Source: Bacillota bacterium (lineage in GTDB: Bacteria > Bacillota > Clostridia > CAKSNL01 > HGM11501). Taken from it: 37,821 nt of DNA. Every line of letters begins with the position of its first letter. Position 1 is the stretch's first letter. The notes below the pieces were generated by a model. The model saw only the letters and a list, made by a program, of their open reading frames with translations. It was not told where the DNA came from and made no database searches. The stretch spans positions 1 to 37,821 of the forward strand of contig JAUZPY010000008.1 of NCBI GenBank assembly GCA_030705805.1, read 5' to 3'. Below are positions 12,507-24,846 of the stretch, one piece after another. Both the position numbers and the translations under genes were made by a program.

Positions 12507-13574
12507 TTATCTGCTATGCCCCATCAAATTAATGAAGTCATCAAATAGAAAATTGGTGTCCTTTGGACCCGGGCAAGCTTCCGGATGAAATTGTACAGAA
12601 AAAGCGAGGTTATTCTTATACGAAAGGCCTTCGTTAGTCCTGTCATTAATATTTATAAAAAGCTCATCAGCAATTTTTTCATCTATGCTTTCAGAAACAA
12701 CTGCATAGCCGTGATTTTGAGAAGATATGTATACATTCCCTGTTTTTAAGTTCTTTACCGGCTGATTTGCTCCGCGATGCCCATACTTTAATTTGGAAGT
12801 GGAAAATCCATGAGCAAGAGCAAGGAGTTGATGTCCTAAGCAAATTCCCATGGTGGGAATCTTTTCATCTGATAGTTTTTTAAGGTTTTCAATAACTTCT
12901 TTATTATCAGATGGATCGCCGGGGCCGTTTGTAAGGAATATTCCGTCAGGTTTGTACTTCATCACTATCTCAGGACTTGTATTATAAGGCAGTACCCAAA
13001 CGTCGCAGTCTCTTTTTAGCAGAGATTTGAGAATATTATCTTTCTTACCAAAGTCAAGCATAGCAACCGTATAGCGGCTTTTTTCACTTTTTACCAGAAA
13101 AGCTTCCTTTGTGGAAACTTCTGCTACAGGCTCGCAGATACGGTAGCTTTTAATTTTATCCAGGTCTACCTTAGGATTATCTGTTATTATACCGTTCATA
13201 GTGCCGTGCTCTCTAAGAATTTTTGTAAGGGCTCGTGTGTCAATGCCATAAAGACCGGTAATATCATTTTCTTTTAAATATGCATCCAGAGTCTTTTCAC
13301 AGCGAAAATTGGAAGGAAATTCACACCATTCCCGAACAACATAAGCAGAAACCCTTGGCTTTTCACTTTCAGTGTCTTCAGAAATCACGCCATAGTTTCC
13401 GATTAAAGGAAAGGTTTGCACCACAGCCTGACCGGTATAGCTTTTATCTGTCAGTGTTTCAATATATCCTGTCATAGCAGTAGTAAAAACAATTTCTGCA
13501 ATTACTTCTTTATCTGCGCCAAAAGCTTTACCTTTAAAAATGCTGCCGTTTTCTAAAATCAAATATCGATTCAT
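12507..13574 (-). CDS. carA: Carbamoyl-phosphate synthase small chain (glutaminase)
   Basis: CarA hydrolyses glutamine and channels ammonia to CarB. The 355-residue protein has the N-terminal CarA domain (YLILENGSIFKGKAFG at the start, FTTAMTGY at 30-37). A class I glutamine amidotransferase domain follows, with nucleophile Cys245 in GICLGHQ and the His330-Pro-Glu332 partners in QFHPEA. NGPGDP at 216-221 is the oxyanion-region motif. Its ATG overlaps the purF stop (ATGA), so the two glutamine-using enzymes are translationally coupled. Carbamoyl phosphate could feed both arginine and pyrimidine synthesis; no pyrimidine attenuator is visible here. Confidence 0.97.
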   Translation of the reverse strand: MNRYLILENGSIFKGKAFGADKEVIAEIVFTTAMTGYIETLTDKSYTGQAVVQTFPLIGNYGVISEDTESEKPRVSAYVVREWCEFPSNFRCEKTLDAYLKENDITGLYGIDTRALTKILREHGTMNGIITDNPKVDLDKIKSYRICEPVAEVSTKEAFLVKSEKSRYTVAMLDFGKKDNILKSLLKRDCDVWVLPYNTSPEIVMKYKPDGIFLTNGPGDPSDNKEVIENLKKLSDEKIPTMGICLGHQLLALAHGFSTSKLKYGHRGANQPVKNLKTGNVYISSQNHGYAVVSESIDEKIADELFININDRTNEGLSYKNNLAFSVQFHPEACPGPKDTNFLFDDFINLMGHSR

Positions 13575-15016
13575 AGCAAATTTTTCTCCCTTTCCGATAG
13601 TTTACATTCAAAGCGGTTTTTTCCCATATGGCTTGGAATAGAAGTCGGATATTCTCCGCTAAAGCAAGCTTTACAGTAACCATGAACCGCATCATCATCA
13701 AAGCCAAGCCTTGTAACATCAGAAAGAGGCAGATAACCTAAGCTGTCCACACCTATATTTTTTGCGATTTCTTCTATGGATTGATTGCAAGCAATCAGTT
13801 TTTCCTTAGAATCAATATCGGTACCATAAAAACATGGGTTTAAAAAAGGAGGCGCGGACACACGCATATGCACTTCTTTTGCACCTGCTTGTCTAAGCAA
13901 ATTTACAATTTGTCCGCTTGTGGTTCCTCTGACAATAGAATCATCTACCATAATGACCCGCTTATCTTTTACCGTTTCTGCAATAGTACTTAGCTTTATT
14001 TTTACTTTATCCACTCTGTCATCCTGACCGGGTGAAATAAAGGTTCTGCCAATATATTTATTCTTAATAAATCCTATTCCGTAAGGAATTCCAGATTCGA
14101 TTGAATATCCTAAAGCGGCATCCAACCCTGAATCCGGCACTCCCACAACCACATCGGCATCTACAGGATGGGCTTTGGCAAGAAATGACCCCGCCCGAAG
14201 CCGCGCCTTGTGAATAGATATGCCGTCGATTACAGAATCGGGACGGGCAAAATATATAGTTTCAAATACACAAAGCGTATGATCACATGTTCCACAATGC
14301 TTAGTTATGGAACGAATATTATTTTTTTCAAATATAAGGATTTCGCCCGGAGCAATATCTCTTATAAAGGTAGCCCCAACTGCGCTCAAAGCACAGCTTT
14401 CTGATGCTATTATATAGCTGCCGTCTTTGCAGCGGCCATAGCACAGCGGACGAAAACCATGAGGATCACGGACTGCAATCAGCTTTGAGGGCGACATAAT
14501 TACCAAAGAATATGCGCCTTCTAACTTATTCATAGCCAGGCTTACTGCATCTTCAATTGAAGGAGCATTAATTCGTTCTTTTGTAATTATATAGGCAATT
14601 GTTTCAGTATCGCTTGTGGTGTGAAAAATAGCGCCTGACATTTCAAGCCCGCAGCGAAGTTCATACGAATTTGTAAGGTTACCATTATGAGCTAGTGCAA
14701 TATGACCTTTCAAATGATTTACTTCAATAGGCTGACAATTGTTTCGATTAGTGCCTCCGGTTGTTCCATAGCGCACATGACCTACAGCCATGGCACCTTG
14801 AGGTAACTTAGATAAAACATCACCGGAAAAAACATCATTAACCAGTCCCATATCCTTATGGGAAGCGAAAACTCCGTCATCATTTACCACGATGCCGCAG
14901 CTTTCCTGACCGCGATGCTGCAATGCAAATAGTCCATAATATACTATCTTGGCAACATTTTTAAATTCTGGGCTAAAAACGCCAAAAACGCCGCATTCCT
15001 CTCTTAATTCACTCAT
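13571..15016 (-). CDS. purF: Amidophosphoribosyltransferase
   Basis: This enzyme makes phosphoribosylamine from PRPP and glutamine, the first committed step of purine synthesis. The 481-residue protein is the iron-sulfur type with a short propeptide: the nucleophile is Cys8 in EECGVFG, exposed after cleavage. The N-terminal Ntn-type glutaminase carries HRGQESCG and HVRYGTTG. The PRPP-binding loop VIMVDDSIVRGTTS is in the C-terminal half. CVFETIYFARPDS and the CKAC pair near the C-terminus are the expected 4Fe-4S ligands. It starts 2 bases after purC and overlaps carA by 4 bases. Confidence 0.97.
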   Translation of the reverse strand: MSELREECGVFGVFSPEFKNVAKIVYYGLFALQHRGQESCGIVVNDDGVFASHKDMGLVNDVFSGDVLSKLPQGAMAVGHVRYGTTGGTNRNNCQPIEVNHLKGHIALAHNGNLTNSYELRCGLEMSGAIFHTTSDTETIAYIITKERINAPSIEDAVSLAMNKLEGAYSLVIMSPSKLIAVRDPHGFRPLCYGRCKDGSYIIASESCALSAVGATFIRDIAPGEILIFEKNNIRSITKHCGTCDHTLCVFETIYFARPDSVIDGISIHKARLRAGSFLAKAHPVDADVVVGVPDSGLDAALGYSIESGIPYGIGFIKNKYIGRTFISPGQDDRVDKVKIKLSTIAETVKDKRVIMVDDSIVRGTTSGQIVNLLRQAGAKEVHMRVSAPPFLNPCFYGTDIDSKEKLIACNQSIEEIAKNIGVDSLGYLPLSDVTRLGFDDDAVHGYCKACFSGEYPTSIPSHMGKNRFECKLSEREKNLL

Positions 15017-15018
15017 GC

Positions 15019-15729
15019 TTAACCCTGAAACACCCTTTTCATCATCTCGGCATACGCACCTTCTACATTTCCCATATCACGGCGGAAACGGTCTTTGTCC
15101 AGCTTTTCATGAGTTTTAGCATCCCAGAAGCGACAGGTATCAGGTGAAATTTCATCAGCAAGTATAATAGTTCCATCTGCTGTTTTGCCAAACTCCAACT
15201 TAAAGTCAATAAGGTCTACACCTATATTTTTAAAGAAGTCAATAAGCAGATCATCAATGCGGAACGCATAGTCGGTGATTGTCTCCACTTCTTGCTTTGT
15301 TGCATATCCTGCGGCAAGTATATGATAATCGTTAACCATAGGATCGCCTAACTCATCATCTTTATAGCTGAATTCTAAGACCTTACATTTTAACGGCGTT
15401 CCTTCTTCAATGCCAAGACGCTTCGAGAAAGAGCCTGCGGCTACATTTCTTATTATTACTTCAAGAGGAACAATGTGAACCTTTTTTACCAAGGTTTCTC
15501 TATCGCTAAGTTCTTGAGCAAAATGAGTGGGGATACCGCTTCTTTCTAACATTTGCATGAGATAATTAGACATTTTGTTGTTTACAATGCCTTTACCTTC
15601 AATAGTCCCTTTTTTCAAGCCATTAAAAGCAGTAGCATCATCTTTATAAGAAACAATACAAAGATTTGGATCATCTGTTGCAAATACTTTCTTGGCCTTT
15701 CCTTCATATAATTGTTCTGCTTTTTTCAT
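15019..15729 (-). CDS. purC: Phosphoribosylaminoimidazole-succinocarboxamide synthase
   Basis: PurC condenses CAIR with aspartate using ATP (SAICAR synthesis) in purine synthesis. The 236-residue length is the standard bacterial size. Family signs are the N-terminal YEGKAKKVF, FNGLKKGTI, the RNVAAGSF segment near residue 95, and EISPDTCRFWD with LDKDRFRRD near the C-terminus. The gene sits 11 bp after purA and 2 bp before purF, with no room for separate promoters. Confidence 0.97.
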   Translation of the reverse strand: MKKAEQLYEGKAKKVFATDDPNLCIVSYKDDATAFNGLKKGTIEGKGIVNNKMSNYLMQMLERSGIPTHFAQELSDRETLVKKVHIVPLEVIIRNVAAGSFSKRLGIEEGTPLKCKVLEFSYKDDELGDPMVNDYHILAAGYATKQEVETITDYAFRIDDLLIDFFKNIGVDLIDFKLEFGKTADGTIILADEISPDTCRFWDAKTHEKLDKDRFRRDMGNVEGAYAEMMKRVFQG

Positions 15730-15740
15730 ATCGGCACTCC

Positions 15741-17015
15741 TTACTGTATTTCAAAATATTTATCTCTTTCTGCTCCAACAGAAACATACTGTATCTGACA
15801 TTTTACCTTACTTTGAATAAAGGTAATATAATTTTTTGCCTGTATGGGCAAGCTATCAAAACTCTTACATCCGGAAATATCGCATTTCCATCCGTCCAAA
15901 TACTCGTAAACCGGTTTTGCATTATCCAGTTCTTTTCCAGCGGGGAATTTTTCGGTCTTTACACCGTTAACCTCGTATGCAACGCATACGGGAATTTTAT
16001 CATAGCAGGAGAGCACGTCCATTTTTGTAAGAGCCAGAGAAGTTGCGCCCTGAAGCATAACACCATATTTTGAAGCAGCTACATCAAAACCACCAACTCT
16101 TCTGGGTCTGCCTGTTGCTGCACCATATTCTCCGCCTGCTTCCCTCAGAACTTCTGCTTCCTCCCCAAACATTTCACATGTAAAGGGACCTTCTCCAACA
16201 CAGCTGGAATATGCCTTCATAATACCAATTACGTTATCTAATTTCATTCCGGGAACTCCGGCACCTATCGGCCCATATGATGCAATGGTCGAAGAGGATG
16301 AAGTATAAGGATAAATACCAAAGTCAATATCCCTTAATGCGCCAAGCTGAGCTTCAAACATTATGTCTTTTCCCTGCTCATTTGCCTCAGTAAGCAATTC
16401 GCCTGTATCACAGATATAGTCAACAAACGGCAAGCCGTAGTCTTCAAGCCACTTAATCATTTCTTCGGCAGAAATAGCTTCATGGCCGTATCCGTTTTTA
16501 ACCGTCAGGTTTTTCCATTCCATAATAGAGGGCATTTTCTTCTTTACTTCATCAAAATGGAGCAGGTCTCCCATACGAAATGCTTTTTTCATATATTTAT
16601 CCGCATACACAGGAGCAATTCCACGACGAGTAGAGCCAAATTTAGCATCTCCAAGCCTGTCCTCTTCCAATTCGTCAAGTAGCTTATGATATGGCATACA
16701 AATAGTTGCCCTATCACTGATTTTTAAGTTTTGGGGCGTTACTTTAATGCCGCCTTCTCTGAGCTTAGCTATTTCCTTGGTCAGATGCTCCAAATCGATT
16801 ACCATGCCGTTTCCCATAACATTTATGGTATTTTCACGTAAAATGCCGGAGGGGAGCAGATTTAAAACAAATTTACCTTTATCGTTAATTACTGTATGTC
16901 CTGCATTATTGCCGCCCTGATAACGGGCAACCACACCATATTTTTCAGAAAGCAAATCTACCATACGGCCTTTACCTTCATCGCCCCAGTTAATGCCTAC
17001 AATTGATGTTAACAT
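15741..17015 (-). CDS. purA: Adenylosuccinate synthetase
   Basis: PurA joins IMP and aspartate with GTP to make adenylosuccinate, the first step from IMP to AMP. The 424 residues match the family. The N-terminal GINWGDEGKGRMVDLL is the GTP/IMP loop. NNAGHTVI, GSTRRGIAPVY and TGRPRRVGGFD mark the IMP- and aspartate-binding loops. It lies 15 bp after purB and 11 bp before purC, so the aspartate-dependent purine steps are contiguous. Confidence 0.97.
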   Translation of the reverse strand: MLTSIVGINWGDEGKGRMVDLLSEKYGVVARYQGGNNAGHTVINDKGKFVLNLLPSGILRENTINVMGNGMVIDLEHLTKEIAKLREGGIKVTPQNLKISDRATICMPYHKLLDELEEDRLGDAKFGSTRRGIAPVYADKYMKKAFRMGDLLHFDEVKKKMPSIMEWKNLTVKNGYGHEAISAEEMIKWLEDYGLPFVDYICDTGELLTEANEQGKDIMFEAQLGALRDIDFGIYPYTSSSSTIASYGPIGAGVPGMKLDNVIGIMKAYSSCVGEGPFTCEMFGEEAEVLREAGGEYGAATGRPRRVGGFDVAASKYGVMLQGATSLALTKMDVLSCYDKIPVCVAYEVNGVKTEKFPAGKELDNAKPVYEYLDGWKCDISGCKSFDSLPIQAKNYITFIQSKVKCQIQYVSVGAERDKYFEIQ

Positions 17016-17030
17016 TACAAAAGTCCTCCC

Positions 17031-18461
17031 TTAAACATTGATTTCTATATTAATTCCAAGTAAATCCCTATATTTATCTAAAACAGGATTTACATACTCA
17101 GATAGAAACTCTTCTGTCTGTTCCTTTGCCATACCTGTAAATTTTTTATAGTCCAAAAGTGATTCCATTTCATCTTTAGTAATATTAAAGGTTTTATCTG
17201 AGAGAATTTGTTCAATCAAATTATTTTCTCCCCCATTAAGCTTAATATTCTTAGCACAGGCAACGGAATGTTGTCTGATGGCTTCGTGAAGAGCTTGGCG
17301 GTCGCCGCCTTTTTTAACACAATGCATCATAATATTTTCTGTTGCCATAAACGGAAGCTCTTCTTTTAAATGCTTTTCCATAACCTTTGGATAAACACTT
17401 CCGCCTTCAATAATATTTATGTAAAGAGACAAAATCGCATCTGCAGCCAAAAATGCTTCAGGTATGGAAATTCGGCGGTTTGCCGAATCGTCCAACGTAC
17501 GCTCGAACCATTGTGCTGAAGCTGTTATCGCAGGGTTCAAAGAATCAATCATGATATACCTGGAAAGTGAAGCAATTCTTTCACTTCTCATAGGATTTCT
17601 CTTATATGCCATAGCGGAAGAACCTATTTGCTTGTCCGCAAAGGGTTCATCAAATTCTTTAAGATGAGAAAGAAGCCTGATATCATTTGAAAACTTTGCC
17701 CCACTTTGTGCAATGCCCGAAAGTACAGAAATTATATTATAATCCACTTTTCTTGTATAGGTTTGTCCGGAAACCGGCATAACCTTTGAAAAGTTCATTT
17801 TTTCAGCTATCTTCTTTTCTAATGCCTTAACCTTTTCGGTATCACCTTCAAAAAGCTCTAAAAAGCTTGCTCCGGTTCCGGTGGTTCCTTTACATCCTAA
17901 TAGTTTCAAATTCTGAAGCTGAAATGAAAGCTGTTCCAAATCTATAAGTAAATCCTGAAGCCACAATGTTGCTCTTTTACCCATTGTAGTAGGCTGTGCA
18001 GCCTGAAAATGAGTATATGCAAGAGTTGGCAAGGATTTATATTCTTCTGCAAATTTGCCTACAGAAGCTATACAGTTCACAAGCTTTTTCTGTATCAGCT
18101 TCATTGCCACACTCATCTGGATAACATCGGTGTTGTCACCAACATAGCATGAGGTCGCTCCCAAATGAATAATGGGCTTAGCTTTAGGGCAAAGATCGGA
18201 GAAAGCATAAATATGTGACATAACATCGTGCCTAAGCTCTTTTTCATATTCTTTTACGGCATCATAGTTGATATCATAAATGTGCTCCTTCATTTCATCA
18301 ATCTGCTCATCAGTGATAGGCAAGCCAAGTTCTTTTTCACTTTCAGCTAAAGCAATCCATAGCTTACGCCAAGTGGAAAATTTAAAATCATCGGAAAAAA
18401 CAGTTTTCATTTCTTCGCTTGCATATCTGACACAAAGAGGGTTTTCATAACAGTTTCTCAT
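17031..18461 (-). CDS. purB: Adenylosuccinate lyase
   Basis: PurB releases fumarate from adenylosuccinate and from SAICAR, acting twice in purine synthesis. The fumarase-superfamily signature GSSAMAYKRNPMRSE is clear in the middle of the protein, and HLGATSCYVGDN and AYTHFQAAQPTT are family loops. The start is set at the second in-frame ATG (18461) because TTGGAGG lies just before it and overlaps the codons of an 18-base longer reading. This gives 476 residues beginning MRNCYENPL, as in other Firmicutes. It is 151 bp after pyrG, the second longest gap in this operon. Confidence 0.96.
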   Translation of the reverse strand: MRNCYENPLCVRYASEEMKTVFSDDFKFSTWRKLWIALAESEKELGLPITDEQIDEMKEHIYDINYDAVKEYEKELRHDVMSHIYAFSDLCPKAKPIIHLGATSCYVGDNTDVIQMSVAMKLIQKKLVNCIASVGKFAEEYKSLPTLAYTHFQAAQPTTMGKRATLWLQDLLIDLEQLSFQLQNLKLLGCKGTTGTGASFLELFEGDTEKVKALEKKIAEKMNFSKVMPVSGQTYTRKVDYNIISVLSGIAQSGAKFSNDIRLLSHLKEFDEPFADKQIGSSAMAYKRNPMRSERIASLSRYIMIDSLNPAITASAQWFERTLDDSANRRISIPEAFLAADAILSLYINIIEGGSVYPKVMEKHLKEELPFMATENIMMHCVKKGGDRQALHEAIRQHSVACAKNIKLNGGENNLIEQILSDKTFNITKDEMESLLDYKKFTGMAKEQTEEFLSEYVNPVLDKYRDLLGINIEINV

Positions 18462-18612
18462 TTGTACCTCCAATTTCATTTGTTCTTATTTATAGGCATT
18501 TATCTTAACTTTGCCTTAGCAATATTTTATCTATTCCTGTGAATAAAAAGGAATCAATATCAGCATAGGAAATCCCCATTTTTGCCACGGCCTAAGTTTT
18601 CTTATTTTACTT
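18462..18612 (-). other. Spacer between pyrG and purB
   Basis: This 151-bp stretch has no gene. It contains a 6-bp inverted repeat (ATTCCT and AGGAAT arms near 18530-18555) without a uridine run. It also contains a GGCA/TGCC pair near 18494-18515. I see no consensus promoter and no hexaloop ANTAR motif, so purB is most simply read from the glnA promoter. Confidence 0.45.
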
Positions 18613-20842
<2,230 letters not shown>

Positions 20843-20876
20843 TTATCACCTCTCCTTTCTGCATAATAAACAGCAG

Positions 20877-22085
20877 TTATTTATTGCTATATGCTTCTAA
20901 ATAGGCTGCCGGAAGAATATTCTTTACAAATGCACTTTGCATGGCCTTTGTAATGGCATCTTCTAATGTAACCGGAAGTGATTCAAGCTTATCTGTAATA
21001 CTTTTATCTGCTTTGTATAAATTAATATTCAGTGCTTCCGGTATATGAAGCTTTCTTTCAATACCATCAAGCCCAGCATAAATCAAGAGTGCAAACGCCA
21101 GATAAGGGTTTGCGGTAGGATCCGGGGAACGTAGCTCAATTCGTTTATCCCCGTTCTTGACAGCCGGAATACGAATCAATTGCGAACGATTTTCATGTGA
21201 CCAGGTAACATATTTCGGAGCTTTTTTCTCACCAAGTCTCTTATAAGACTGTTCTGTAGGATTTAAAAATAAAGTTATTTCTTTAATGTGCTCCATAATG
21301 CCGGCCATGAACGGCTGGGTACAATCCTTGCCTTTTTCACAATCCAAAGACATATTAATATGCATTCCGCTACCTGATTGATCTTTAAGGGGTTTTGGTG
21401 AAAAGTCTGCATTTAATCCGTTTCGCATAGCAACTGTTTTCACAACCCATTTAAAGGTGGCCGTATTATCCGCGGCAGACAAAGCGTCACTATAGTGAAA
21501 ATCAATTTCATTCTGCCCCGGCCCCTCTTCATGATGTGAAGCTTCCGGTTGAATTCCCATATCAATCAAAGTAAAACATATTTCACGACGCACATTTTCG
21601 CCGCTGTCTTCCGGCGCTATGTCCATATATCCTGCGTTGTCAAAAGGCAGCGTTGTTGCATTGCCGCTTTCATCGGTTTTAAACAAATAAAATTCCATTT
21701 CAGGTCCAAAATTTACGGAAACTCCCTTTTCTTTTGCAGCCTTAATGGCATTTTTCAAAATTAAGCGGCTGTCCTTCTCAAAAAGTGAACCGTCAGGATA
21801 CCTGATATCACAATACATTCTCACCACTCTGCCATGTATAGGCCTCCAAGGCAGAATTGAAAGCGTGGATGGATCAGGATGCAAAAACAAATCACTCTTA
21901 ACCTCGTCTCCAAAGCCTGCCACAGCCGAAGCATCAAAGGAAATACCATCTATAAATGCACGCTTAAGTTCATCCGGCATGATAGAAATGTTTTTTTGCT
22001 TTCCGAATACGTCGAAAAATGCAAGCCGTATAAACTTCACGTCTTCTTGTTCTACAAAAGTTAGCACCTCGTCATATGAATACAT
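20877..22085 (-). CDS. glnA: Type I glutamine synthetase, short divergent form
   Basis: This protein belongs to the glutamine synthetase family (ATP, glutamate and ammonia to glutamine). Metal and substrate residues are in place: GPEMEFYLF, EASHHEEGPGQNEIDF, SGSGMHINMS, SYKRL, ENRSQLIRIP and RIELRSPDP. At 402 residues it is about 40 shorter than the usual 440-445. The C-terminus stops after ILPAAYLEAYSNK and lacks the family's last ~30 residues (the RTxVHPWE tail). The flap, normally VPGYEAP, reads GEKKAP, so the usual flap glutamate appears replaced by lysine. The arginine linked to feedback inhibition in Bacillus (FVRIEESD) is aspartate here (FGDEVKSD). I cannot say from sequence whether it is a true, feedback-insensitive synthetase or has another ligase or regulatory role. 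It heads the large minus-strand operon. Confidence 0.9.
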   Translation of the reverse strand: MYSYDEVLTFVEQEDVKFIRLAFFDVFGKQKNISIMPDELKRAFIDGISFDASAVAGFGDEVKSDLFLHPDPSTLSILPWRPIHGRVVRMYCDIRYPDGSLFEKDSRLILKNAIKAAKEKGVSVNFGPEMEFYLFKTDESGNATTLPFDNAGYMDIAPEDSGENVRREICFTLIDMGIQPEASHHEEGPGQNEIDFHYSDALSAADNTATFKWVVKTVAMRNGLNADFSPKPLKDQSGSGMHINMSLDCEKGKDCTQPFMAGIMEHIKEITLFLNPTEQSYKRLGEKKAPKYVTWSHENRSQLIRIPAVKNGDKRIELRSPDPTANPYLAFALLIYAGLDGIERKLHIPEALNINLYKADKSITDKLESLPVTLEDAITKAMQSAFVKNILPAAYLEAYSNK

Positions 22086-22135: not shown

Positions 22136-22194
22136 AAAAACGAAAGCGTTCATCCGAAGGATAACTTTCCCCTTTAAGATGAACGCCATTGCCC
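22136..22194 (-). promoter_or_regulatory. ANTAR-type attenuator in the glnA leader
   Basis: On the minus strand the leader first forms P1, GGGC[AATGGC]GTTC (22181-22194), a hexaloop with A1 and G4. Six bases later comes P2, AAGGGG[AAAGTT]ATCCTT (22157-22174), whose innermost closing pair is G-A. A competing terminator pairs 22178-22186 with 22146-22154 (9 bp perfect) and is followed by TTTCGTTTTT (22136-22145). The 5' arm of the terminator overlaps the 3' arm of P1, so holding P1-P2 would block termination. Binding by the ANTAR protein is inferred. Confidence 0.78.
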
Positions 22195-22222
22195 TAATAA
22201 ATTACCAATATTAACAACTAAT

Positions 22223-22251
22223 ACTATACAAGAAAATCAATTATTTGTCAA
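22223..22251 (-). promoter_or_regulatory. glnA operon promoter
   Basis: On the minus strand TTGACA (22246-22251) and TATAGT (22223-22228) are separated by 17 bases. Transcription should start near 22216 and run into the ANTAR-type attenuator, then to the AGGAGG site (22094-22099) and the glnA start at 22085. Confidence 0.85.
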
Positions 22252-22266
22252 GCTGCTTTAGAAACA

Positions 22267-22285
22267 TTTTGGAAAATATCCAAAA
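22267..22285. promoter_or_regulatory. Palindrome between the divergent glnA and glnN promoters
   Basis: TTTTGGA and TCCAAAA arms are separated by 5 bases, forming a 19-bp dyad in the 40-bp gap between the two -35 boxes. It is centred where one dimeric regulator could reach both promoters. It does not match the GlnR/TnrA consensus (TGTnA-N7-TnACA). AT-rich DNA gives such dyads by chance fairly often, so this is only a candidate operator. Confidence 0.4.
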
Positions 22286-22291
22286 AAAGTG

Positions 22292-22320
22292 TTGACAAGA
22301 CAAGATTCATGAAATATAAT
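22292..22320 (+). promoter_or_regulatory. glnN promoter
   Basis: TTGACA (22292-22297) and TATAAT (22315-22320) are both full consensus hexamers with a 17-base spacer. Transcription should start near 22327, only a few bases before the first ANTAR-type hairpin, so the attenuator forms the extreme 5' end of the RNA. Confidence 0.92.
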
Positions 22321-22331
22321 GGCTATATAAA

Positions 22332-22375
22332 TGGCAATGGTGTCGCAGGTAAAGGTATCTGTGGTACCGTTTTTT
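22332..22375 (+). promoter_or_regulatory. First ANTAR-type attenuator in the glnN leader
   Basis: P1 is TGGC[AATGGT]GTCG (22332-22345). P2 follows directly as CAGGT[AAAGGT]ATCTG (22346-22361). Both hexaloops have A at position 1 and G at position 4, the ANTAR recognition pattern. A competing terminator pairs 22338-22349 with 22358-22369 (12 positions, several G-U pairs) and ends in TTTTTT (22370-22375). The terminator uses bases of both hairpins, so the two states exclude each other. Confidence 0.85.
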
Positions 22376-22386
22376 GTTAAACATGC

Positions 22387-22470
22387 ATTAGGAACTGCAT
22401 TCCTAATATCCCTAAAAAAATGCAACGGCAAAGGCGTCGTGAATTGTTTACGATACCCTTGTCGTTTTTT
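22387..22470 (+). promoter_or_regulatory. Second ANTAR-type attenuator in the glnN leader
   Basis: The upstream hairpin is an 8-bp perfect stem (22387-22394 with 22400-22407), whose loop region can present ACTGCA with A1 and G4. The second hairpin is ACGGC[AAAGGC]GTCGT (22425-22440), again A1/G4. A terminator of 15 paired positions with two mismatches (22426-22440 with 22450-22464) overlaps the second hairpin and ends in TTTTTT (22465-22470), then ATTTT. The second hairpin closely resembles P1 of the other two elements (GGC-AAnGGy-GTy), so this looks like a diverged duplicate in series. Confidence 0.78.
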
Positions 22471-22497
22471 ATTTTAAAGCAAAAAGGAGATAGAACA

Positions 22498-24591
22498 ATG
22501 AATACATTTTCAGAGTTGTTTGGCTCATGCGTTTTTGATGAATCAACTATGAAAGAGCGTCTGCCTAAGGAGACCTTTAAACAGCTGCAGCGTACTATAC
22601 AAAACGGAAGAAGTTTAGATAGCAACATTGCTAACGTAGTAGCTAATGCTATGAAGGATTGGGCCATTGAAAAAGGTGCAACTCATTACACCCACTGGTT
22701 CCAGCCTATGACAGGTATTACCGCTGAAAAACACGATAGTTTTATTTCACCTACAGCTGACGGTAAAGTAATTGCAGAGTTCTCCGGCAAAGAATTGATA
22801 CAAGGAGAACCTGACGCTTCATCTTTCACATCAGGCGGACTTCGTGCAACATTTGAAGCACGTGGCTATACAGCATGGGATCCTACATCTTATGCCTTTT
22901 TAAAGAATGGCGTTCTTTGCATTCCTACTGCTTTTTGTTCTTACGGCGGTCACGCTCTTGATAAAAAGACCCCGTTGCTTCGCAGCATGGAAGCAATAAA
23001 CAGGCAAGCAATGCGTATTTTGAAACTCTTTGGCAATGATGACGTTACATCGGTTAAAACAACCGTAGGTCCGGAACAAGAGTATTTTCTTATCGATAAA
23101 AAATATTACGAACAAAGAAAAGACCTTATTTATACAGGCAGAACCTTATTTGGTGCTAAAGCTCCTAAGGGTCAAGAGCTTGAAGATCATTATTTTGGTA
23201 CTATCAAATCCCGTGTTCAGGCTTACATGAATGAGCTGAACGAAGAGCTTTGGAAGCTGGGAATTCTTGCAAAAACCGAACATAATGAAGTTGCTCCCGC
23301 ACAGCATGAGCTGGCACCGATTTTTACCACAACCAATATCTCTACAGATCATAACCAACTGACAATGGAGTTAATGCAGAGAATTGCAAAGAAGCATGGT
23401 CTTGTATGCCTTCTTCATGAAAAGCCCTTTGCCGGTGTTAACGGCAGCGGCAAGCACAATAACTGGTCAATTTCCACCAATACCGGTGTAAACCTTTTGG
23501 AACCCGGTGAAACACCTTATGAAAATGCACAATTTCTTCTGTTCCTTTGTGCGGTAATTAAGGCAGTTGATGAATATCAGGATTTACTTCGTATTTCCGC
23601 CTCATCAGCAGGAAACGACCACCGTCTTGGCGCTAACGAAGCACCTCCGGCTGTAGTTTCTATTTTCCTCGGCACTCAGCTTACCGAAATATTAGAAGCT
23701 TTAGAAAGCGATGCTTCTTACGATGCAAAAGAAAAAGAACTCATGAGGATCGGTGTTCATGTACTTCCGAAATTCCCCAAGGATGCTACAGACCGTAACC
23801 GTACTTCGCCTTTTGCATTTACCGGTAATAAGTTTGAATTCCGTATGCTTGGCTCTTCTGCTTCAATTTCAGGTCCTAATATTGTTTTAAATACTGCAGT
23901 AGCAGAGGAACTTAAACAATTTGCTGACATTTTGGAATCTGCAAAGGATTTTGAATTGTCTTTGCATGATATTATTCAAGATACAATTAAAAAGCATAAG
24001 AGAATTATATTCAACGGCAATGGTTATGACGATGCTTGGATTTGCGAGGCTGAAAAGAGAGGTCTTCTCAATTTGAAGACCACACCTGATGCTCTCACAT
24101 ATTACCTCAATAAGAAAAACATAGATTTATTTACTTCTCATAAGGTTCTCAGCGAAGATGAAATGTGCTCTCGTTATGAGATTTTAATGGATAACTATAT
24201 AAAAGTTATAAATATAGAAGCACTTACTATGGTGGATATGGTTAGAAAAGATATTCTTCCCGCTGCAAGCAGATATACAAAAGAGCTTACAGATACAGCT
24301 CTTGCAAAGAAAGCTTTAGGCGATGATATTAATGCTTCTTATGAATTAGAGTCTGCAAAGCAAGTATCACACTTAACCAGTTCTATCTTTGAGCACGTAA
24401 AAGCACTGGAAAAAGCATTAATGAATGCAAAAGAAGTTACAGACCTTGAAAAATTAGCTTTCTATTATAAGGATTATATCTTTACAGCAATGATATCTCT
24501 TCGTGCTGTTACAGACGAACTGGAAGGTATTACAGCAGAGGATGTATGGCCTTATCCTTCCTATGGTGAATTGTTATTTGGTATCCTTTAA
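22498..24591 (+). CDS. glnN: Type III glutamine synthetase
   Basis: GlnN makes glutamine from glutamate and ammonia as a large-subunit dodecamer. The start at 22498 follows AAAGGAG with proper spacing; an in-frame ATG at 22420 lies inside the attenuator and is rejected. The 697-residue product is in the GSIII size range. Family signs are [16 protein letters not shown] near residue 66, [50 protein letters not shown], the [20 protein letters not shown] flap region, and [17 protein letters not shown]. Expression is set by the two ANTAR-type attenuators. No terminator separates it from the T-box leader 10 bases downstream, so it may be co-transcribed with asnB-gltB-gltD. Confidence 0.97.
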
Positions 24592-24601
24592 TATAAAATA
24601 G

Positions 24602-24846
24602 CGTTGATAAAGAGAAGTAGCACAGAAGTTCTGTTTTTAAGCGAGTATGGGATGGTGGGAGCCATATACAAGTATCTGTGTGAATAACACTTTGGAGCTG
24701 CAATCTGAAAAGCATTACTGCTTAGTAGGTGAGCCGTGAGCCGAGCGAAAATCGGCAGCTTTTTTAAAAAGCAAAAGTAAAATAAGTAGGTGGCACCGTG
24801 AGTCACAGCACTCACCCTATCATAGAGCTGAAACATTTGGAGGTAT
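24602..24846 (+). ncRNA. T-box leader with an asparagine specifier
   Basis: The leader shows T-box landmarks in order. These are an AGAGAAGTAGC segment near 24611, a GGGATGGTGGGAGC (GNTG-type) segment at 24649-24662, and a specifier loop reading GAATAACAC with AAC at 24686-24688, followed by ACTTTGGAGCTGC. The antiterminator is at 24787-24819: TAGG pairs with CCTA, the bulge is TGGCACC (24791-24797), and GTGAGT pairs with ACTCAC. TGGC is complementary to a GCCA acceptor end, as expected for tRNA-Asn with a G discriminator. The AAC codon agrees with the next gene, asnB. I find no clear competing terminator after the antiterminator, nor an obvious SD sequestrator. A GCCGA/TCGGC hairpin followed by TTTTTT lies before it (24739-24766). 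The switching mechanism is therefore unresolved. Confidence 0.9.

Follow-up and report, generated by a model that had tools for sequence, protein, structure and literature searches.

Candidate single-hexaloop ANTAR attenuators on two divergent glutamine synthetase transcripts, with two elements in series in front of glnN

Our analysis indicates that the divergent glutamine synthetase genes glnA and glnN of the window (the whole analysed stretch of DNA, 37,821 nucleotides) are likely to be controlled by three ANTAR attenuators with a single hexaloop each, which would be read by a NitR-type protein and two of which stand in series in the glnN leader. The conservation of the elements, their folding, the distribution of ANTAR proteins and the rival explanations are considered below.

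Locus and anatomy of the attenuators

Contig C131, which makes up the window, comes from a genome of 2.0 Mb that is 94% complete and is class-level kin to Clostridia. The gene order is glnA, the ANTAR protein gene and pyrG on the minus strand, and glnN, a T-box, asnB and gltB on the plus strand (Table 1). The glnA and glnN promoters are strong, near-perfect sigma-70 promoters, divergent and placed back-to-back. All three elements share a common anatomy: the strong promoter is followed by the hairpin P1 with its C-G-closed hexaloop C-AANGRN-G, and P1 is followed by an intrinsic terminator. The first-pass annotation had proposed three first hairpins of the form GGC-AAnGGy-GTy with A1 and G4 in the loop, each overlapped by a terminator with a U run, and an ANTAR protein encoded second in the glnA operon. 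The hairpins are present at the proposed places, the terminators were recovered by folding near 22375, 22470 and 22136, and the ANTAR gene was confirmed at 20255-20842 on the minus strand. Exact matches to the GGC-AAnGGy-GTy pattern number seven in the 2.0-Mb genome, including 22333-22344 (+), 22427-22438 (+) and 22193-22182 (-); two of the four remaining matches were inspected and there is no such attenuator there.

Table 1. Positions of genes, promoters and RNA elements in the window
Feature	Position	Strand	Support
NitR-like ANTAR protein (pseudo-receiver + ANTAR), presumed reader	20255..20842	-	PF03861, 65.5 bits
glnA, type I glutamine synthetase	20877..22085	-	
glnA terminator (base stem of 11 bp, 22187-22177/22155-22145; U run up to 22136), cannot coexist with P1	22136..22187	-	
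glnA element P1, GGGC-AAUGGC-GUUC, loop 22190-22185	22181..22194	-	sequence; near-identical P1 in L134 and L150
glnA promoter, TTGACA-17-TATAGT	22223..22251	-	
glnN promoter, TTGACA-17-TATAAT (12/12)	22292..22320	+	
glnN element 1 P1, TGGC-AAUGGU-GUCG, loop 22336-22341	22332..22345	+	covariance model, E 4.4e-6
glnN element 1 terminator (stem of 16 bp, 22336-22371; U run at 22370-22375), cannot coexist with P1	22336..22375	+	
Second A..G hexaloop hairpin in element 1 terminator apex, CAGGU-AAAGGU-AUCUG, loop 22351-22356	22346..22361	+	
glnN element 2 terminator, with its stem at 22424-22466 and its U run at 22465-22470, takes in all of P1	22424..22470	+	
glnN element 2 P1, ACGGC-AAAGGC-GUCGU, loop 22430-22435	22425..22440	+	covariance model, E 5.6e-8
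glnN, type III glutamine synthetase (GSIII, 697 aa)	22498..24591	+	GSIII_N
T-box leader RF00230, between glnN and asnB	24595-24822	+	93.4 bits

The loop and the 3' arm of P1 are at the same time the 5' arm of the terminator, and P1 and the terminator are therefore mutually exclusive. The terminator geometry differs between the two glnN elements: in element 2 the terminator includes the whole P1, in element 1 only the P1 loop and 3' arm. The terminator energies of element 1, element 2 and the glnA element are about -18, -19 and -23 kcal/mol, with z values of -4.8, -3.6 and -3.6, respectively. When growing prefixes of the glnN leader were folded, P1 of element 1 formed first (-2.3 kcal/mol) and was then overtaken by the terminator (-17.5 kcal/mol), so the default state should be off. 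The covariance-model score of the glnA element is weak (E 1.5).

No Rfam family reaches its gathering score for the glnA and glnN leaders, and there are weak matches only, narK among them. The narK match (RF03032) covers window 22363-22440 (+), and the 3' end of that motif (CGACAAAGACGUCGC) is similar to the hexaloop hairpin P1; the narK motif may be an ANTAR target itself.

Several further observations concern the surroundings of the elements. A perfect 8-bp inverted repeat, ATTAGGAA-CTGCA-TTCCTAAT, lies between glnN elements 1 and 2 at 22387-22407 (+); it is absent from the leader of G001, a genome of the window's family. The longest glnN frame (22420-24591, +) opens at ATG 22420, slightly 5' of element 2 P1, and automatic annotation may thus take the attenuator into the coding sequence; the likely start is 22498, which has a good ribosome site in front. 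As the T-box separates asnB from glnN, asnB-gltB has its own tRNA-read attenuator 3' of the ANTAR-controlled glnN. Finally, the ANTAR gene and glnA form a colinear series with purF-, purC-, purA-, purB- and pyrG-like genes (window 13571-22085, -), and the glnA attenuator may therefore reach glutamine-using nucleotide genes.

Conservation of the elements

The conservation was assessed in 110 glnN leaders, taken from relatives and from named genomes. The detector demanded a hexaloop A[ACT]NG[GA]N, and with it the loop bases A1 and G4, on a stem of at least 4 bp, an exclusive terminator and a U run. It was positive in 58 of the 110 leaders versus 8 of 550 shuffled leaders, and it found at least two elements in 15 of the 110, the eight shuffled matches all being single. 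The core CAANGRNG occurs 114 times on the sense strand of the glnN leaders, versus 21 +/- 5 times in shuffles. All 106 elements collected from several genes have A at loop position 2 and close the loop with C-G, two features that were not demanded. In an alignment of 53 sequences 91% of the P1 cells are paired, a percentage that is biased upward because the elements were selected for having P1 and a terminator; the range of pair types suffers less from this bias, and double changes are found in four of the five P1 pairs (the fifth is the invariant C-G) and in nine of the 13 terminator pairs.

The nitR-glnA/glnN cluster shows synteny in L134, L150, L153 and other loci and has elements on both its sides there; asnB and gltB mostly follow it, and in L153 (Candidatus Heritagella) the three-element layout is identical to that of the window. 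Upstream of glnA in relatives the element is often absent, and several of these glnA genes have another gene close upstream. Conservation in related genomes thus extends to the loop bases, to the closing pair and to both of the mutually exclusive structures. We regard it as practically certain that the three elements are real attenuators.

One hexaloop per terminator

The elements had also been described as paired hexaloops, and this description is mostly wrong. A second hexaloop hairpin is absent from the glnA element and from glnN element 2. Only element 1 has a second A..G.. loop, in the terminator apex, and this loop is probably there by chance, since its closing pair is U-A and not C-G, its distance from the first loop is 15 nt, and relatives lack it. 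Among the 106 elements, a second A..G.. hexaloop on a stem of at least 3 bp was found in 12, compared with 19 for the control loop A..T.. and 14 for A..A.., so that second loops with A1/G4 are no more frequent than the controls; shuffles of the stretch 3' of P1 gave about 4.5. A second hexaloop closed by C-G is present in only 2 of the 106. The positive control was provided by three eutA loci of the same class (L291, L293 and L294), which have textbook pairs, C-G-closed and 21-23 nt apart. A strict dual-hexaloop scan of the window's intergenic region found element 1 alone and missed the other two elements, which means that P2 is not the conserved part. The terminator overlaps P1 itself and not a P2 hairpin. 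Having no second hairpin, the elements fall outside the dual-hexaloop definition and correspond to the single-hexaloop minimal motif of PMC8934654. They probably work with one hexaloop each. We found no description of single-hexaloop attenuators in the literature consulted, where they are raised as a possibility, and earlier work on Clostridium NitR may exist.

The reader protein

One ANTAR protein was found in the window's genome, the one behind glnA. Its solved structural relatives are 1s8n and 6wsh. In the comparison with 1s8n (Rv1626) it has Asn59 at the position of the phosphoacceptor Asp, and the close NitR clade has mostly Asn there, otherwise Ser, His or Val. The window protein therefore does not have the receiver aspartate of phospho-activated, EutV-type proteins, and the input signal of NitR is probably not phosphorylation. 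Of the EutV residues with contact roles, Lys143, Lys147, Tyr164 and Met172 (PMC8934654), the counterparts would be Arg147, Arg151, His168 and Met176.

Elements and ANTAR proteins strongly co-occur. Of 391 class-level genomes 131 have both, 38 the element only, 62 an ANTAR protein only and 160 neither (Fisher p about 5e-23, a value that overstates independence because the genomes share ancestry). In a separate set of genomes based on glnN leaders, where ancestry is shared too, the same four classes hold 52, 4, 8 and 16 genomes. No ANTAR protein was detected in 38 of the 169 genomes with a model match, or in 5 of the 55 with a strong one (E <1e-5), G001 included. Intact elements accompany this absence in Treponema ruminis (a complete genome), G001, G041, G263 and others, and the elements are tandem in Treponema ruminis (L176/L280) and G001 (L098). 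A looser search of the element-bearing ANTAR-less genomes returned ordinary receiver domains only and no ANTAR domain. Congeners of G041 and G263 do have the gene, which makes assembly gaps or recent loss likely there; the absence from Treponema ruminis is harder to dismiss. For the ANTAR-less tandem genomes, Treponema ruminis and G001, another reader, recent loss or masked sequence is possible. Some ANTAR-less genomes have no element or a degenerate one (L133, L154). Taken together, the proposal of ANTAR-type antitermination on both glutamine synthetase transcripts is strongly supported by the conserved loops and structures and by the co-occurrence, and on this comparative evidence the attenuators are very probably read by ANTAR proteins.

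Tandem elements and the regulon

At least two P1 cores are present in 19 of the 62 core-bearing glnN leaders, or in 18 after L109 was set aside because its extra core sits in a palindrome without a terminator. In these 18 tandem leaders the elements are 47-133 nt apart, and the -10 box of the best promoter match ends 13-21 nt before the first loop in every one. The carriers include G001, Mordavella massiliensis, Claveliimonas monacensis, Candidatus Heritagella and several Treponema. No tandem elements turned up among the other genes at the same loci as glnN. A further tandem leader is present in the window's genome (G000), at about 7.9-8.0 kb of contig C111 (L263 1924 and 2035, -); behind it come the gene of a membrane protein of 108 aa and a probable amtB, by sequence an ammonium transporter. 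The series arrangement proposed for glnN is thus supported and conserved (18/62 leaders). Transcription units with several ANTAR elements were already implied by the 13 elements in six units of Desulfotomaculum acetoxidans (PMC3369931).

The genes behind the elements include glnN, glnA, glutamate synthase-like genes and asnB, all identified by sequence match. Assignment by eye from the protein sequences of relatives adds amtB, asnA, gdhA, carA, a PII protein gene, pyrG and purC. The elements in front of pyrG-, purC- and carA-like genes (L277 2030, L264 2035 and L189 2746, all on the minus strand) suggest that glutamine-consuming nucleotide synthesis may belong to the regulon of some relatives. 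Control by ANTAR proteins had already been reported for genes of glutamine synthetase, glutamate synthase, PII and ammonium transporters (PMC3369931).

Alternative explanations

It could be argued that these are canonical dual-hexaloop elements as in eut, where P1 recruits the protein, which then passes as a dimer from P1 to a P2 that overlaps the terminator. The ANTAR domain of the reader is standard, and element 1 does offer a second A..G hexaloop, on a 5-bp stem and 15 nt downstream. However, this apex is not conserved, the terminator overlaps P1 instead of P2, second loops are rarely C-G-closed and no commoner than controls, and the eut leaders of the same class show the very pairs, at 21-23 nt, that are missing here. 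We therefore consider the dual-hexaloop explanation very unlikely. Just as improbable, in our estimate, is that a different RNA-binding factor reads the attenuators and that the association with ANTAR reflects shared ancestry or nitrogen physiology. Such a factor would account for the element-bearing genomes without ANTAR, the complete Treponema genome among them, but the loop bases and the closing pair match the ANTAR consensus from SELEX and crystal structures (PMC7496416, PMC8934654), the co-occurrence is strong, the ANTAR gene stands in synteny behind a regulated glnA, and in the ANTAR-less L133 and L154 the element is lacking or degenerate.

The first-pass annotation had further suggested graded or AND-type control. 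An AND gate of two ANTAR signals is unlikely: a single ANTAR protein was found in the window's genome, and the 16 tandem-bearing genomes searched have exactly one (14 genomes) or none (2), so two ANTAR signals are not combined. An AND gate of NitR and another factor, translation or RNA folding, would agree with the different terminator geometry of elements 1 and 2; however, the loop type and the closing pair are alike in both, and with at most one ANTAR protein per genome we give this explanation marginally less credit than the other two. The glnN anatomy allows a reading in which read-through occurs in series, with a lower basal level and a steeper response.

Proposed mechanism

We propose that in the nascent leader the weak P1 with its C-AANGRN-G loop would form shortly after the predicted start site. 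Sequence, folding and covariation suggest that an unheld P1 would give way as its loop and 3' arm pair downstream, and the resulting strong intrinsic terminator would keep the gene off by default. A NitR-type ANTAR protein would bind the hexaloop, hold P1 and block the base of the terminator, and the polymerase would pass. P1 itself would thus be the antiterminator, which makes a second hexaloop unnecessary. As the reader is encoded behind glnA, it would form a positive loop on its own operon. The cue to NitR is presumably a nitrogen-state signal that comes from a protein or a metabolite and does not depend on phosphorylation. On glnN the two gates would be passed in series, the same protein probably reading both; read-through would then be roughly the product of two events, and shut-off should be tighter and the response steeper than for the one-gate glnA.

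Comparison with known systems

The circuit drawn here is a candidate nitrogen circuit of gut Clostridia and Treponema, which would act on glutamine synthetases, on ammonium transport and on further genes linked to glutamine. Tandem riboswitches and T-boxes likewise gate a single leader in series and are read by ligand or tRNA. Unlike these, the series gates of glnN are presumably read by a protein.

The elements resemble the targets in EutV/eut, NasR/nasF and AmiR/amiE (PMC3369931): an A1/G4 hexaloop, a C-G closing pair and, very probably, an ANTAR reader. They also share with these systems a leader attenuator with an intrinsic terminator and the control of nitrogen genes. The SELEX consensus of NasR has the terminal C:G together with A1/G4 (PMC7496416), and changes of the closing pair in eutP abolish induction (PMC3369931). 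In contrast to eut, nasF and amiE, there is one hexaloop per terminator here, the terminator overlaps P1, and P1 lies close behind the start site. For EutV and NasR both hairpins were found to be needed for antitermination or full affinity (PMC3369931, PMC8934654, PMC7496416), which counts against the one-hexaloop explanation. The regulon of Desulfotomaculum acetoxidans comprises the same kinds of genes, including glutamine and glutamate synthase leaders, but its elements are listed under the two-hairpin model, and an in-leader series arrangement is not analysed in the available part of that paper (PMC3369931).

A further point of comparison is the structural work that reduced the minimal ANTAR motif to a single hexaloop, while holding that the dimer must contact both hexaloops to stop termination; the role of single sites was left open there and bioinformatics was called for (PMC8934654). 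One hexaloop is the binding unit in that definition and here, yet the sites described here are single ones within terminators, found across Clostridia and Treponema. It is more likely than not that they represent a widespread class in these bacteria: a single terminator-embedded hexaloop, read independently of phosphorylation by an ANTAR protein with a pseudo-receiver, serving a nitrogen regulon and often doubled on glnN. If true, this class contradicts the view that antitermination requires two hexaloops. The locus and its relatives form a conserved natural set of single-hexaloop attenuators, with one or two per leader, for direct testing, and the eutA loci of the same class with their dual hexaloops make a useful contrast set.
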